From Rhodovulum steppense (lineage in GTDB: Bacteria; Pseudomonadota; Alphaproteobacteria; Rhodobacterales; Rhodobacteraceae): a DNA stretch of 53,351 nucleotides. The translations under genes and the position numbers were made by a program. The notes beneath the pieces were generated by a model. That model searched no databases and had not been told where the DNA came from. It was given only the letters and a program-made list of their open reading frames with translations. This document shows, piece by piece, positions 3,962 through 24,040 of the stretch; positions within the stretch are counted from its first letter, which is position 1, and each line of letters starts with the position of its first letter. The DNA is taken from assembly GCF_004339675.1 (NCBI RefSeq), contig NZ_SLVM01000022.1, positions 1-53,351 on the forward strand. Direction: 5' to 3'.

Positions 3962-4674
3962 TGGGTCACAAGGTCAATCCGATCGGCATGCGCCTTCAGG
4001 TGAACCGCACTTGGGACAGCCGCTGGTATGCCGACACCAAGGAATACGGCAACCTGCTGCTGGAAGACCTGGCGATGCGCGACTTCATCCGTGAAGAGTG
4101 CAAGCAGGCCGGCGTCAGCCGCATCATCATCGAGCGCCCGCACAAGAAATGCCGGGTGACGATCCACACCGCGCGTCCCGGCGTGATCATCGGCAAGAAG
4201 GGCGCCGATATCGAAGGGCTGCGCAAGAAGCTGGCCAACATGACGGCGAGCGAGTTGCATCTCAACATCGTCGAGGTGCGCAAGCCCGAACTTGACGCTC
4301 AGCTGGTGGCCGAATCCATCGCCCAGCAACTGGAGCGCCGGGTCAGCTTCCGCCGCGCGATGAAACGGTCGGTTCAGAATGCCATGCGCATGGGCGCCCT
4401 CGGCATCCGGGTCAACGTCGCGGGCCGCCTCGGCGGCGCCGAGATCGCGCGGACCGAATGGTATCGCGAGGGCCGGGTGCCGCTGCACACGCTGCGCGCC
4501 GACATCGACTATGCCCTGGCCGAGGCGTCCACGCCCTACGGCATCATCGGCATCAAGGTCTGGATCTTCAAGGGCGAGATCATGGAGCATGATCCCTCCG
4601 CCCGCGATCGCCGCCAGGCCGAGCTGCAGGAAGGTGGCGCCCCGTCGCGTCCGCGCCGCGAGCGCGAGCGCTAA
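3961..4674 (+). CDS. rpsC: 30S ribosomal protein S3
   Basis: 237 aa from the ATG overlapping the rplV stop; [18 protein letters not shown] is the conserved N-terminus. A KH domain with [14 protein letters not shown] (about residues 75-90) and the C-terminal domain with [20 protein letters not shown] follow. S3 lines the mRNA entry channel and helps unwind mRNA. The basic RPRRERER tail is usual in this group. Confidence 0.98.
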
Positions 4675-19706: not shown

Positions 19707-21026
19707 ATGGCTGACCTGTTCGACCGCATAGACCCCGCCCCGCCGCACAAGCCAGGCCCCCGCCCGCTGGCCGACCGGCTGCGCCCGAAACGGCTGGCCG
19801 AGGTGATCGGGCAGGAACATGTCCTCGGCCCCGACGGCCCGCTGGGCGTGATGCTGGCCTCGGGCACGCTGTCCTCGCTGATCCTCTGGGGGCCGCCGGG
19901 CGTGGGCAAGACCACCATCGCGCGGCTGCTGGCCGACGAGACCGACCTTTCCTTCGTCCAGATCAGCGCGATCTTCACCGGGGTCGCGGATCTGAAGAAG
20001 GTGTTCGAGGCGGCGAAACTGCGCCACGCGAACGGCCAGGGGACGCTGCTGTTCGTGGACGAGATCCACCGCTTCAACAAGGCCCAGCAGGACGGGTTCC
20101 TGCCGCATATGGAGGATGGCACGATCCTGCTGGTGGGCGCGACCACGGAAAACCCCAGCTTCGAACTGAACGCGGCACTCCTGAGCCGGGCGCAGGTGCT
20201 GGTGCTGGAAAGGCTGGATCTGGCGCATCTCGAACTGCTGGCGCAACGCGCCGAACAGGACCTCGGCCACGCGCTGCCGCTGACCGGCCCCGCGCGCGAG
20301 CAATTGCTGGAAATGGCCGATGGCGATGGCCGCGCGCTTCTGAACCTGATCGAGCAGATCGCGGCCTGGACGGTCGAGGGCGCGCTGTCGCCCGAGGCGC
20401 TGGCCCGGCGGCTGCAGAAACGCGCCGCGCAATACGACAAGTCGGGCGACGCGCATTACAACCTGATCTCGGCGCTGCACAAATCCGTGCGCGGGTCCGA
20501 TCCCGACGCCGCGCTTTACTGGCTTGCGCGGATGTTGGAGGGCGGCGAGGACCCGCGCTTTCTGGCCCGCCGCATCACCCGCATGGCAATCGAGGATATC
20601 GGCCTCGCCGACCCGCAGGCGCAGACGCTGTGCCTGGATGCGTGGTCCGTCTATGAACGGCTGGGCAGCCCCGAGGGCGAACTGGCGCTGGCGCAGGCGG
20701 TGATCTATCTGGCGCTCGCGCCGAAATCGAACGCGGGCTACGCCGCCTACAGGAACGCGCGGGCGGCGGCGAAACGCACCGGGTCCGAACCGCCGCCGAA
20801 ACATATCCTGAACGCACCGACGAAGCTGATGAAGGACCAGGGTTATGGAACGGGCTACGAATACGACCATGACGCGCGGGACGCCTTTTCGGGGCAGGAC
20901 TATTTCCCCGAGGCGATGACCCGCGGCGTCTATTACAGCCCCGTGGAGCGGGGTTTCGAGCGCGAGCTGAAGCGCCGCCTCGACCATTTCACGAGGCTGC
21001 GTGCCCAGCGGCGGGGCGAGGGCTAG
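19707..21026 (+). CDS. rarA: Replication-associated recombination protein RarA (MgsA)
   Basis: 439 aa AAA+ ATPase. Walker A GPPGVGKT (62-69), Walker B FVDEIH (116-121), sensor 1 GATTENPSFELN, and the C-terminal tetramerisation region with AIEDIGLADPQA and APKSNAGYAAYRNA. RarA acts at stalled replication forks. Its stop is 17 nt before the left end of the Mu-like element, so the gene is intact but its downstream neighbour crcB has been pushed 2.5 kb away. Confidence 0.95.
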   Translation: MADLFDRIDPAPPHKPGPRPLADRLRPKRLAEVIGQEHVLGPDGPLGVMLASGTLSSLILWGPPGVGKTTIARLLADETDLSFVQISAIFTGVADLKKVFEAAKLRHANGQGTLLFVDEIHRFNKAQQDGFLPHMEDGTILLVGATTENPSFELNAALLSRAQVLVLERLDLAHLELLAQRAEQDLGHALPLTGPAREQLLEMADGDGRALLNLIEQIAAWTVEGALSPEALARRLQKRAAQYDKSGDAHYNLISALHKSVRGSDPDAALYWLARMLEGGEDPRFLARRITRMAIEDIGLADPQAQTLCLDAWSVYERLGSPEGELALAQAVIYLALAPKSNAGYAAYRNARAAAKRTGSEPPPKHILNAPTKLMKDQGYGTGYEYDHDARDAFSGQDYFPEAMTRGVYYSPVERGFERELKRRLDHFTRLRAQRRGEG

Positions 21027-21037
21027 CGCCGCGAGGG

Positions 21038-21042
21038 GTTTC
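21038..21042. repeat. Left 5-bp target-site duplication of the Mu-like element
   Basis: GTTTC immediately before the terminal TG at 21043. It is repeated exactly at 23520-23524 after the terminal CA. Five-base duplications are the hallmark of Mu-type transposition. Confidence 0.85.
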
Positions 21043-21049
21043 TGTGTAG

Positions 21050-21091
21050 TTACAGGTGGTTCTGACAGGGCATTACAGGGGTTTTGATACC
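21050..21091 (+). repeat. Left-end transposase-site array (two copies)
   Basis: TTACAGGTGGTTCTGACAG at 21050-21068 and TTACAGGGGTTTTGATACC at 21073-21091, 23 bp apart start to start. They match the right-end sites read on the opposite strand, as expected for MuA-type end binding. Confidence 0.8.
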
Positions 21092-21151
21092 GGAAGAGCC
21101 TCGAAGTCCGCGGGCTATCCCGGATCGCCCGGCACCGTCCGGGACGGCAGA

Positions 21152-21523
21152 TCAGCGGCGGTTGTTCTGCCACCAGGAGTGGATGGCGCTCTTGCCGACA
21201 CGGCGCTCGGGCGGGAATGCCTTGGCGACTTCCTCGGCCAGGTCAATGAAGGTCATCCGGTCGATGCGCGCGCGGATGAAGGCGCGCAACTCGGGGTCGG
21301 TGTCGATCTTGGGCGGCCGGCCGGGGCGGTGGGCGCGGCGGTGGGCGCTCGGTTCGGGCAGGTCTTCGGGGGGCGTTTGAAGGGGCGTTGGAACACCCTC
21401 TTCAAGCTCGGCGCGAAGGGTGCCCTGGAGGCGGTCGAGCTCGGCCGAGGCGTTGTCGAGCAGCCTGCGGACCTCGCGCAGGGCGGCGCGCAAGGCCACG
21501 ATCTGCGACAGGGCGCGGCTCAT
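21152..21523 (-). CDS. Small Mu-like phage protein, DNA-binding type, function unknown
   Basis: 123 aa from the ATG at 21523, which overlaps the stop of the upstream gene (ATGA). Residues 1-45 form a probable coiled coil (VALRAALREVRRLLDNASAE), then a Pro-rich linker, then GRPPKIDTDPELRAFIRARI and a helix-turn-helix-like end (MTFIDLAEEVAKAF...VGKSAIHSWWQ). I believe this pair of small genes recurs in transposable phages of Rhodobacterales but cannot name it. No frameshift is seen. Terminator-like inverted repeat TCCCGGA / TCCGGGA lies after the stop near the element's left end. Confidence 0.65.
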   Translation of the reverse strand: MSRALSQIVALRAALREVRRLLDNASAELDRLQGTLRAELEEGVPTPLQTPPEDLPEPSAHRRAHRPGRPPKIDTDPELRAFIRARIDRMTFIDLAEEVAKAFPPERRVGKSAIHSWWQNNRR

Positions 21524-21891
21524 GCGTCCCCCCATCGGGCGGGCGACGGCCGGTAGGGATCCTTGCCCAGCCAGCCGCGGACGGTCGTGTCGCTCGCGTG
21601 AAGGGTGCGGGCAATGTCGGCGACCGAGCGCCCCTCATGCGCGAGACAGGCCGCGACCCACGGCTTGGCGAGCGGGATGCGCGGGTTCTGGGTCTGCCGC
21701 AGCGTCTCTGACAGCTCGGCGGCCAGGTCCACGCCCACGAGTTGGACGACACGCGAGCGCTCGGTCGGGTTGCGGCCGATATAGAGCTCGGCCCCGCCGA
21801 AGGTCAGGAGGAACTGCATGGCGAGTTTGGAACCCAGCACGCGGACATAGGGTTCGATGTGCGCCGGGGGCTTGGGATAGCTGTCTCTCAC
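21520..21891 (-). CDS. Mor-like phage regulator
   Basis: 123 aa from a GTG at 21891 (GTGAGAGAC). The core FLLTFGGAELYIGRN followed by a spacer and a helix-turn-helix (VAACLAHEGRSVADIARTLH, then SDTTVRGWLG) has the layout of the Mor/C transcription activators of Mu: a Gly-Gly-x-x-x-Tyr-Ile strand and then an HTH. Mor switches on middle transcription in Mu. The match is by layout, not by full alignment. Coupled by ATGA to the next leftward gene. Confidence 0.6.
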   Translation of the reverse strand: MRDSYPKPPAHIEPYVRVLGSKLAMQFLLTFGGAELYIGRNPTERSRVVQLVGVDLAAELSETLRQTQNPRIPLAKPWVAACLAHEGRSVADIARTLHASDTTVRGWLGKDPYRPSPARWGDA

Positions 21892-21921
21892 GTGCTCACT
21901 CCGTCGCGCGGCGGGGTGGAT

Positions 21922-21955
21922 GGGGACGGCTGCGAGGGGGAAAGCAGCCGTCCCC
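21922..21955 (-). terminator. Long hairpin between protease fragment and Mor-like gene
   Basis: Perfect 12-bp stem GGGGACGGCTGC / GCAGCCGTCCCC with a 10-nt loop. No T-tract on either side. It fills most of the gap after the I-gene fragment and may be the terminator that once separated two phage transcription units. Confidence 0.55.
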
Positions 21956-22017
21956 CGTGCCGTCGGCCCTGGTGACCGAACCGGCGGCGATGCGCGGGGC
22001 CAGGCCCCCGCGCAATC

Positions 22018-22623
22018 TCAGTCCTTCAGCGCATCCTCGGCCAGGCCGAGCTGGCGCGCCACCGAGGCGGCTTCGGGCGACGTGGGACGCCCACCGCCAG
22101 CGCAGCCGGGATTGTCGGCGAGGTGGCTTTCGCGCGTGAGGTGCGCGAAGGCGGGAACGGCGGTGGCGATGAAGCGGTCGAACGCGGCCTCGTCCGTCGC
22201 GCAGAGGTCGAACGCCCATGCCTTCATCGGCGTGGTCAGATAGCCCTTGCGGAAGGCGTCTTCGACCTTGCGGGCGGCGCGCTCCTGGTGCCTCTGGCCG
22301 CGTTCCTGCAAGGCCGCTTCCATCGCCTCGATGGGCACGAACCTGCGCGGGTCGGGCTTGGCACCGTCGCGCACCGGGGACGAGAGCGCCGCGACGATCT
22401 CGGCCTCGCTGGCAGTCGCGGCGAGGTTCAGGAGCCGGGCGACCCGGGCGGAGAATTCCTGTTCTTCGGCCATCGGGTCCTCCATCGAAGCGGCCAGGGG
22501 GGTGAGACGCAGGGCGGGCGTGTGCACCAGGCCCGCGCTGGACAGGTAGACCACGCGGTGATCGTCCTCGCGCACCATCAGCATGGGGCTGAGACACGAA
22601 GCCCGCTCGCACCTGAGCGACAC
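22018..22623 (-). pseudogene. C-terminal fragment of Mu-like protease/scaffold protein (gene I)
   Basis: Open frame of 201 codons. Early residues carry VVYLSSAGLVHTPALRLTPL, then a helical scaffold-like part: FSARVARLLNLAATASEAEI, DPRRFVPIEAMEAALQERG, KGYLTTPMKAWAFDL. This matches the C-terminal half of Mu prophage I proteins, which are about 350-400 aa; the protease half is missing. Upstream, a different frame gives the start of another small gene (MTIVTEKVDRR, ATG at 22660), so a deletion appears to have joined an early gene to the middle of gene I out of frame near 22625-22640. Confidence 0.7.
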
Positions 22624-22680
22624 GCTGGCGCCTGTCCACCTTTTCGGTTACGATGGTCATGGTATTCGAACTCTTCAATC

Positions 22681-22711
22681 CCATGATGATAGTATCATGC
22701 TATGATCATGG
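22681..22711. promoter_or_regulatory. Candidate phage operator, 31-bp near-palindrome
   Basis: 26 of 31 positions are symmetric. It contains the perfect palindrome ATGATAGTATCAT and overlapping ATCAT/ATGAT half-sites, and is much more AT-rich than its surroundings. It lies 21 bp before the repressor start and overlaps the beginning of the leftward unit, the right place for a repressor controlling both directions. Confidence 0.75.
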
Positions 22712-22732
22712 CGTGTCAAGCGTGGTGGTGCG

Positions 22733-23308
22733 ATGGACCAGGACCTTTCCGCTCGGCTCAGAGACCTGAAGGAGGCGCACGGCTGGACCGCGAAGGAAAT
22801 GGGTGAGATGATCGGCATCCCAAAACGCACGATGGAAAGCTACATGCGCCCGAGGGATGCGGCGTATCCCGGTGTGGACGCGCTCCGAAAGCTTGCCACC
22901 GGGCTGGGTGTTTCCTTGGACTGGCTCGTTTTTGGGGCCGAGTGCGCTGGGAGGCGGTCGGCAAGCCTCGCCAAGCTCGTGACCCTCTCCGCCGCGCGTG
23001 AAGTTCTGCCCGACTTGTTCCAGGCCATTGACCGTGTGGACGACGAGCCTCTCGAAGAGCAGTTTGTGGGTGGAAGAACGGCCGGCGAATGGGCCGAGGC
23101 GTTGGCAACCATCGCAGCGGAGCGCGCGTTCAATGTCGCTTCGCTCGGAGCCACCAGCGAGGCTCTGGAGCACTTCGAGCGGCGCTTCGAGTTGAAGGCG
23201 GCCCTGGAAAGGCTCCAGACCTTTGAGGCGTTGAAGGCGAAGAAGCTTGAGCTCGAAGCGCAAATTGCCGAGCTCCGCGCGGACATGGGCAGCGACTCCC
23301 CCGATTGA
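22733..23308 (+). CDS. Phage c-type repressor, XRE-family HTH
   Basis: 191 aa, apparently intact. Residues about 5-65 are a Cro/C1-type HTH (LRDLKEAHGWTAKEMGEMIG, IPKRTMESYM, LRKLATGLGVSLDWLVFG). The rest is helical, ending in a coiled coil (ERLQTFEALKAKKLELEAQI) likely used for dimerisation. No catalytic Ser-Lys pair of LexA/CI type is evident. The upstream near-palindrome is its probable operator. The ATG at 22733 has a poor RBS. If expressed it could repress related incoming phages. Confidence 0.8.
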   Translation: MDQDLSARLRDLKEAHGWTAKEMGEMIGIPKRTMESYMRPRDAAYPGVDALRKLATGLGVSLDWLVFGAECAGRRSASLAKLVTLSAAREVLPDLFQAIDRVDDEPLEEQFVGGRTAGEWAEALATIAAERAFNVASLGATSEALEHFERRFELKAALERLQTFEALKAKKLELEAQIAELRADMGSDSPD

Positions 23309-23426
23309 TCCCGTGCGGTGTGCGGTTTTCAGCGCACACCTTTTAGGAGCCGATCATTGATTTTATTGGATTTTGCCTAACCGCCCCCCCTAGGTCCGCG
23401 CCGTTCTGGTGCTGAAAAGCCCCGAA

Positions 23427-23512
23427 ACTGTCAAAACCCCTGCAACTGGCCGCCCGCTAACCCCTTGATTTTCAATGGCGCTAAAATCCCAGGGTGTCAA
23501 AACCTCCTGTCG
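23427..23512 (-). repeat. Right-end transposase-site array (two copies)
   Basis: On the minus strand CGACAGGAGGTTTTGACACC (23512-23493) and GTTGCAGGGGTTTTGACAGT (23446-23427), 66 bp apart. They share the core CAGGnGGTTTTGACA with the left-end sites and face inward. Confidence 0.8.
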
Positions 23513-23519
23513 CCGCTCA

Positions 23520-23524
23520 GTTTC
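23520..23524. repeat. Right 5-bp target-site duplication
   Basis: GTTTC directly after the terminal CA at 23518-23519, identical to 21038-21042. Confidence 0.85.
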
Positions 23525-23656: not shown

Positions 23657-24040
23657 ATGACAAGCATCGGAACGATCCTTCAGGTGGCGCTGGGCGGCGC
23701 GATCGGGGCGGTGGGGCGCTACCTCACCGGGCTGGCGACGATCCGGCTGATGGGGCCGGGCTATCCCTGGGGCACGCTGACGGTGAATGTGCTGGGCTCG
23801 TTCCTGATGGGCGTGCTGGTGGTGGTGCTGGCGCGGAAGTTCGGCAATGCCTATGCGCCCTTCCTGATGACCGGGATCCTCGGCGGGTACACCACCTTCT
23901 CGGCCTTCTCGCTGGATGCGCTGACGCTTTACGAGCGCGGGCAGGTCCATATGGCGGCGGGCTATGTCTTTGCCTCGGTCGCGCTGTCGCTGCTGGCGAT
24001 TGCGGCGGGGCTGTGGGTGGCGCGGGGGCTGATGGCATGA
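23657..24040 (+). CDS. crcB: Fluoride channel CrcB/Fluc
   Basis: 127 aa, four membrane spans. Signatures GGAIGAVGRY (13-22), GTLTVNVLGSFLMG (39-52, with the conserved Asn44) and GGYTTFSAF (76-84). It forms a dual-topology dimer that exports fluoride across the inner membrane. No fluoride riboswitch was recognised upstream. It overlaps the next gene by ATGA, starting a four-gene overlapping operon. Confidence 0.96.
   Translation: MTSIGTILQVALGGAIGAVGRYLTGLATIRLMGPGYPWGTLTVNVLGSFLMGVLVVVLARKFGNAYAPFLMTGILGGYTTFSAFSLDALTLYERGQVHMAAGYVFASVALSLLAIAAGLWVARGLMA

Follow-up and report, generated by a model that had tools for sequence, protein, structure and literature searches.

A reduced Mu-type element of 2477 bp (positions 21043-23519) was studied in a 53,351-nucleotide stretch of Rhodovulum steppense DNA (assembly GCF_004339675.1, contig NZ_SLVM01000022.1, positions 1 to 53,351 of the forward strand), hereafter called the window. 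The element is a real transposon-style insertion, and as to anatomy and origin it is probable, with good confidence, that it is a reduced derivative of a compact Mu-type element of about 8.5 kb. The gene content of the compact parent lineage tentatively suggests, at slightly less than an even chance, a transposing phage satellite that carries its own capsid gene.

The element opens with TG and closes with CA, and GTTTC is found immediately outside each end (21038-21042 and 23520-23524). These bounds had been reported in an earlier note on this DNA, together with the two end sequences, and all of them read in the sequence as that note had them. The note had named the spacer between rarA and crcB in close relatives as the place to look for an empty site. 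In the window, the frames read as rarA (stop at 21026) and crcB (start at 23657) are the neighbours of the element. Genomes, contigs and loci are labelled G, C and L below, G000 being the genome of the window. When crcB was searched by blastn across 16 genomes of the genus, the empty site was found in G014, with a single GTTTC, no insert, and flanks that were 97.0% (1369 bases) and 98.0% (1582 bases) identical. Because the insert is missing in G014 and GTTTC is present there only once, the insertion and its target duplication are real and chance is ruled out. The left end (21043-21092, the far end in phage orientation) contains repeated TTACAGG-GGTTTTGA-type boxes and is kept in the copies of G003 and G007. 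The right end (23431-23519, the repressor-side end in phage orientation) lies within approximately 162 bp that are 83-85% identical to the right ends on contig C29 of G000 and in G003 and G007. Further in than the tips, an inverted end repeat of 15 nt, 93% complementary, is formed by arms at 21073-21087 and 23431-23445.

Four open frames are retained between these ends. Three are on the minus strand: p127 (127 amino acids, 21152-21535), with a long N-terminal helix and a C-terminal helix-turn-helix domain resembling Mu gp27, the small terminase subunit; a Mor/C-type late transcription activator (123 amino acids, 21520-21891; phrog_836, E 5.6e-20); and a Z-like scaffold frame inside gpI (151 amino acids, 22018-22473; C-terminal part of PF10123, E 1.6e-20), which starts at an internal ATG at 22473 with a GGAGG ribosome site 5 bases upstream. 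The fourth, on the plus strand, encodes a CI-like repressor (191 amino acids, 22733-23308; HTH_31 E 6.4e-8, Phage_CI_repr E 9.4e-5, phrog_8 E 2.2e-10), and two small palindromes at 22686-22709 are putative repressor operators. Upstream of the Z-like start, a minus-strand remnant of gpI (22474-22588), recognized by tblastn alignment to gpI and from the sequence, meets the first 24 codons of ner (22589-22660, minus strand), which were identified by eye from an RAGFVSQ-like motif common to intact ner-like frames. Compared with intact relatives, the end of ner, MuA, MuB, the small genes, GemA, gpT and the start of gpI are missing. This loss appears to be explained by one deletion with its junction near 22589, where ner at about codon 24 is fused to gpI (22586-22596) as read by eye against ner and gpI of other elements. 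MuA and MuB are encoded by the related copies L027 and L026 and not by the window copy, which is left without a transposase and is thus non-autonomous. The ends, the duplication and the missing transposase together bear out the part of the earlier note that described a non-autonomous Mu-type element with both ends intact and an internal deletion. Mobilization in trans is plausible: the window copy could move solely with transposase from a relative.

The class to which the parent is assigned was delineated with a gpT profile. The profile matched 426 genome stretches and 105 viral ones, and 80 of each were taken in. A locus was called compact when it had no match for terminase large subunit, portal, head protein F, head-tail adaptor, sheath or tube and had gpI or p127 after gpT. 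In this marker search 47 of the 80 genome loci and 11 of the 80 viral loci were compact, 14 and 33, respectively, had a portal or terminase, and 19 and 36 fell in neither group. The compact class is widespread in Rhodobacterales, with the gene set repressor/ner, MuA, MuB, GemA, gpT (capsid), gpI (protease/scaffold), Mor/C activator and p127, the repressor being CI-like where one was detected. MuB was found in 28 of the 47 compact genome loci, GemA in 39, gpI in 45, the activator in 35 and p127 in 39; L141, L178 and L205 are marginal members. In all 47 loci with a portal or terminase gpI lay upstream of gpT, and downstream in none. The window copy has p127, the Mor/C activator, gpI and the repressor in the order of the compact class between shared ends. 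It has lost gpT and MuA/MuB, so it is a derivative and not a full member of the class.

Exact 5-bp duplications together with matching TG...CA ends were found in 14 of 23 compact loci compared to 0 of 506 mismatched left-right pairs, and in 11 of 20 when the three loci that had set the profile were left aside. The lengths defined by these 14 pairs of ends were 4896-11018 bp, with 11 of them within 7.5-9.3 kb. No match to terminase, portal, F, adaptor, sheath or tube was obtained in the 58 compact loci, an absence that the rule itself defines and that includes many short loci; lysis genes were not searched by marker. Moreover, the frame lists of three elements with both ends (7951, 8301 and 8527 bp) contained no unexplained frame of large-terminase or portal size. 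An internal gpI start with a ribosome site, comparable to that of the window copy, was present in 37 of 39 scorable compact gpI genes compared to 35 of 302 internal gpT methionines, a comparison in which the best of the nearby methionines was taken and each control was counted singly, and in which conserved QE residues encoded there may contribute some of the signal. The 39 genes come from the 58 compact loci, the others having no usable gpI, motif or methionine. In Mu, gpI likewise has an annotated internal start, gene Z.

In a quick gpT tree, 49 of 53 compact rows formed one clade (Shimodaira-Hasegawa-like approximate likelihood ratio test support 96), with L145, L153, L178 and L205 outside it; seven rows, five of them compact, had been left out for a broken frame or an odd length. 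The ratio of nonsynonymous to synonymous substitutions (dN/dS) for gpT was 0.02-0.21 in 14 of the 15 pairs listed out of 27 computed, some of them with identical rows, and 0.31 in the remaining pair (dS 0.01). These values show that gpT is under purifying selection. Among the Rhodovulum copies dN/dS was 0.23 for MuA and 0.21 and 0.31 for the activator. Frames free of stops over the whole match were found for gpT in 53 of 58 cases, gpI in 46 of 52, MuA in 16 of 20 and p127 in 42 of 42, the last being a weak test as the p127 matches are short.

When the C-terminal domain of the p127 family was compared with the N-terminal domain of the gp27 family by hhalign, the probability was 87.7 and E 3.4e-6; after trimming it was 93.4 and E 2.4e-7, with a score of 37, and none of 60 column-shuffled controls scored above 17. 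The annotation of Mu gp27 is that of a terminase small subunit. The match of p127 to HTH_32 (E 0.0026) was under Pfam's cut-off, and HTH_32 was matched by 16 of 31 single members. The predicted model of p127 is a confident one (predicted local distance difference test, pLDDT, 89). The p127 family profile found 22 of 295 sampled family genomes at E<=1e-6, and one p127 query gave no match at E<=1e-3 in 50,697 phage and 72,556 plasmid records. From its profile matches, p127 is possibly a small-terminase-like protein.

When the element was used as query against its own genome and the genus, many partial copies were found. The right end (at most 3 mismatches) occurred at seven places in 3 of the 16 genus genomes, the window's included, compared to 0 places for the reversed pattern in the same genomes. 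Five of the seven have the other end assembled, and the elements so bounded are 9274, 6716, 2477, 1224 and 1135 bp long; the other two (C17 and C29) run off contig ends. A sixth complete copy, L029, is 352 bp long and its right end is more diverged. Target duplications flank the two long copies, GCCAA the 9274-bp copy of G007 and CCGGC the 6716-bp copy of G003, and both copies encode MuA and MuB. The 1224-, 1135- and 352-bp copies are pieces of the same element between both ends, and the 5-mers on their two sides are not exactly alike. Each short copy inspected in the genus carries a deletion of its own, internal deletions being common, and a second locus with the ner-gpI junction of the window copy, which would have been the same deleted unit at more than one locus as in miniature inverted-repeat transposable elements (MITEs), was not found in an assembly that breaks at copies. 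In the window's own assembly, C29 and C14 carry fragments of this MuA type and no complete copy occurs; since contigs end at copies, an intact MuA may have escaped assembly.

These searches bear on the parent that the earlier note had proposed, a Mu-like phage of 35-40 kb shrunken to 2.5 kb. The structural genes are of Mu-phage descent, a Mu-like prophage with a portal is present in the same genome, and long elements are possible at the two of seven right ends that run off contigs. Against such a phage, no full-length phage with these ends was found in the 16 genus genomes or the viral collection; the gene order p127-activator-gpI-(deletion)-repressor agrees with that of the compact class; and the p127 query was unmatched in phage records. 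An exact 22-base piece of the right end had no match in the viral collection, the nucleotide search of the element had none in phage and plasmid records, and no relatives were confirmed when viral contigs were scanned with repressor, activator or MuA singly. The search for the end sequences that the note had called for thus returned the mini-copies it had anticipated, as well as longer elements in the genus, and no full-length phage; the same ends bound at most 9274 bp among assembled copies. A full-phage parent is therefore highly improbable.

Several observations weigh against descent from such a compact class or against its satellite reading. The satellite reading is inferred from gene content. 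The order of gpT before gpI (or p127 after gpT) and the absence of markers are built into the compact rule. Of the 47 compact genome loci, 23 gave a MuA match and 21 gave both MuA and p127; just 29 extend 8 kb or more upstream and 4 kb or more downstream of gpT. Among the 23 loci tested for ends, 9 were without convincing ones. The terminase markers also missed a prophage on contig C10 despite its portal, so a missing terminase match is weak on its own and the argument leans on portal, size and frame lists. Mu-type portals were not found in 21 of 31 host genomes checked. The similarity of p127 to gp27 is confined to one small domain, the gp27 Pfam family was matched by one of the 31 p127 members, weakly (E 0.019), and a fold search with p127 gave no match at E<=0.001. 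The dN/dS of p127 among the Rhodovulum copies was 0.41-0.60, which indicates that p127 is less constrained. A stop interrupts gpT in G114/L116 and gpI in G046/L129.

The last of these observations would also be expected if the compact elements were decaying prophages or transposons that still contain capsid genes of no further function, and further copies (L147 and G193) are likewise broken or shortened, in a genus where internal deletions are common. Decay of this kind is nevertheless unlikely given that one main gpT clade extends over many genera, that gpT dN/dS is low, that the internal Z-like start is conserved, and that exact 5-bp duplications recur with 11 of 14 lengths at 7.5-9.3 kb. 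It could be argued instead that the shell proteins are turned against phages, for example by spoiling the assembly of Mu-like capsids, and do not serve transfer of the element itself. A capsid homologue with a scaffold and no detected portal or large terminase would suit such a role, and Ccm of SaPIbov5, a homologue of capsid protein, is described as redirecting the assembly of helper capsids (PMC8569155). The terminase-like domain of p127 and the activator point rather to packaging, and an anti-phage role is considered quite unlikely. For the window copy itself, the chances are even that a parent of about 8.5 kb inserted here and lost its interior in place, rather than a 2.5-kb unit arriving as such. 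The private deletions of the genus short copies and the failure to meet the same junction twice favor deletion in place; the perfect ends and duplication, the insert missing in a close relative, and the closely similar far-end copies (93-100%) where contigs of this genome break, which suggest recent spread of the family, speak for arrival as a short unit.

These far ends were observed as follows. The genome of the window contains six more ends of the p127 side, on C4, C6, C21, C40 and C45 (L036-L039 and L033) and on C11 (L032). Five of the six coincide with contig breaks, where 46-190 bases match the C4 copy at 93-100% identity, and such near identity at contig breaks indicates that several copies were probably collapsed in the assembly. 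A second type of far end (TGTTAGTGTTCAG...) was joined to the same interior in L033 (approximately 4240-4300), L026 (1704-1760) and L034 (approximately 2850-2940). In L026 it is paired with the usual opposite end and matching target duplications are absent, which would fit an exchange of ends between elements. In G081 (L107-L111), which belongs to another genus, 14 p127 matches and several MuA fragments were present, two of them at contig ends, which suggests an expansion of shortened copies. A tape-measure gene occupies the expected position of gpI in Rhodovulum copies (L027 3346-5229 and L026 14808-16691). In G007 it matches PF06791 (E 4.8e-19), and the tape measures of the G007 and G003 copies are related to that of the C10 prophage (40% over approximately 250 residues).

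Several copies, the window's included, are placed in hairpin-like sequence. Folding energy at target sites was low overall (combined p 2.7e-8), and a stem was found at the 5% level in 6 of 17 sites (combined p 0.003), in comparisons with controls that were not confined to intergenic spaces. A strict rule of hairpin targeting was rejected on the count of 6 of 17, and hairpin targeting is a tendency and no rule.

A possible helper is present in the same genome. At approximately 94-117 kb of contig C10 of G000 (L279 and L280) there is a Mu-like prophage with matches to MuA, MuB, portal, head, tube and tape measure, and it is a candidate helper. It had also been considered as the parent of the window element and was dropped, as the end pattern of the element was not found on contig C10 and its MuA is distant (28 bits). 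Mu-type portals were present in 10 of the 31 genomes checked, which comprise the hosts of 25 of the 47 compact genome loci and six G genomes, G000 and G003 among them, and in 36 of the 295 family genomes. Among the latter a portal was found in 6 of 22 genomes with p127 compared to 30 of 273 without (Fisher p 0.037), a weak co-occurrence that may merely reflect genomes rich in mobile DNA.

A second gpT clade of 17 rows, mostly from Rhizobiales, Rhodospirillales and other bacteria (Caulobacter included), gave no portal or terminase match, and several members have MuA-MuB-GemA, the activator and gpI before gpT. Tape-measure matches follow gpT in L165, L169, L176, L177 and L208, and by eye in L168; host-like genes were seen by eye soon downstream in L168, L172 and L177. 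Of 12 Rhizobiales-type loci tested for ends, L165 (Phyllobacterium phragmitis) alone stands out, with 8815 bp and an end similarity of 18 compared to 16 for the best of 132 controls. This clade is a lead to a further compact Mu-like set. In L175 (10900-12936), which looks compact, gpT is followed by a 678-residue frame, tail-tip-like by eye, and then a gpG-like gene.

Compact elements share with Mu-type phages (Mu, Rhodovulum phage vB_RhkS_P1 and Sinorhizobium phage StopSmel) the repressor/ner region, MuA, MuB, GemA, Mor/C, gpT and gpI with an internal start, and with Mu the 5-bp duplication and the TG...CA ends. In contrast, they measure approximately 8.5 kb compared to 36.7-38.8 kb, no large terminase, portal or complete tail was detected in them, gpT precedes gpI, and p127 lies at the far end. 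Phage-inducible chromosomal islands (PICIs), to which the Staphylococcus aureus pathogenicity islands (SaPIs) belong, encode TerS and use a site-specific integrase, and their capsid-forming relatives (cfPICIs) carry an integrase, a portal and a large terminase beyond the capsid genes. The compact elements resemble PICIs and SaPIs in the capsid homologue and possibly in a small-terminase-like protein; they would transpose instead of integrating site-specifically, and their gpT and gpI are of Mu type. With cfPICIs they have in common a satellite-like size and their own capsid genes; they differ in the Mu transposase, and neither portal nor large terminase was detected in them. MITEs and other deletion derivatives of DNA transposons likewise retain ends and lose the interior, as do the window copy and the 1224-, 1135- and 352-bp copies, which differ from them in Mu-type descent; the window copy moreover has four open frames and its deletion was not found twice. 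PICMIs (phage-inducible chromosomal minimalist islands) are also small with a reduced gene content, and are described in PMC10803314 as encoding no capsid-remodelling genes, which are central in compact elements. A 2024 review, in which cfPICIs are stated to make their own capsids, names as satellite kinds P4-like elements, PICIs, cfPICIs, PICI-like elements (PLEs), PICMIs, virion-encapsidated integrative mobile elements (VEIMEs), tycheposons and pDolos (PMC11389934). No Mu-type phage satellite was found described in the open-licence literature searched, so a description elsewhere is possible.

Of genes that might form or remodel a capsid or redirect packaging, as those of satellites do, gpT and gpI are present and p127 resembles the gp27 domain. 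A new satellite class is cautiously proposed, short of an even chance of being right: Mu-type elements of approximately 8.5 kb that transpose, with a capsid, a scaffold/protease, a late activator and a small-terminase-like protein, widespread in Rhodobacterales and with a second set, in Rhizobiales and other bacteria, in which a tape-measure gene is frequent. The parents would insert through MuA/MuB strand transfer, often at palindromic spots, and would be kept silent by their own repressor. They would spread from cell to cell as satellites that provide shell, scaffold and terminase-recognition protein; portal, large terminase, tail and lysis would come from a Mu-like helper, and the parts supplied by the satellite would set particle size and packaging choice. 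An internal deletion, most simply one, would then have turned a compact parent into the 2477-bp copy.

The parent lineage is the interesting part behind the reduced window copy. Shrinkage of a Mu-type element is visible within one genus, in copies of 9.3, 6.7, 2.5, 1.2, 1.1 and 0.35 kb, and hosts that can be cultured are available, for example Rhodovulum marinum DSM 18063 and Sediminimonas qiaohouensis DSM 21189. Selection that maintains a capsid gene in a lineage where neither a packaging motor nor a portal nor a complete tail was detected is difficult to account for without phage parasitism or interference, and the satellite reading, if true, would unite transposable phages and phage satellites.

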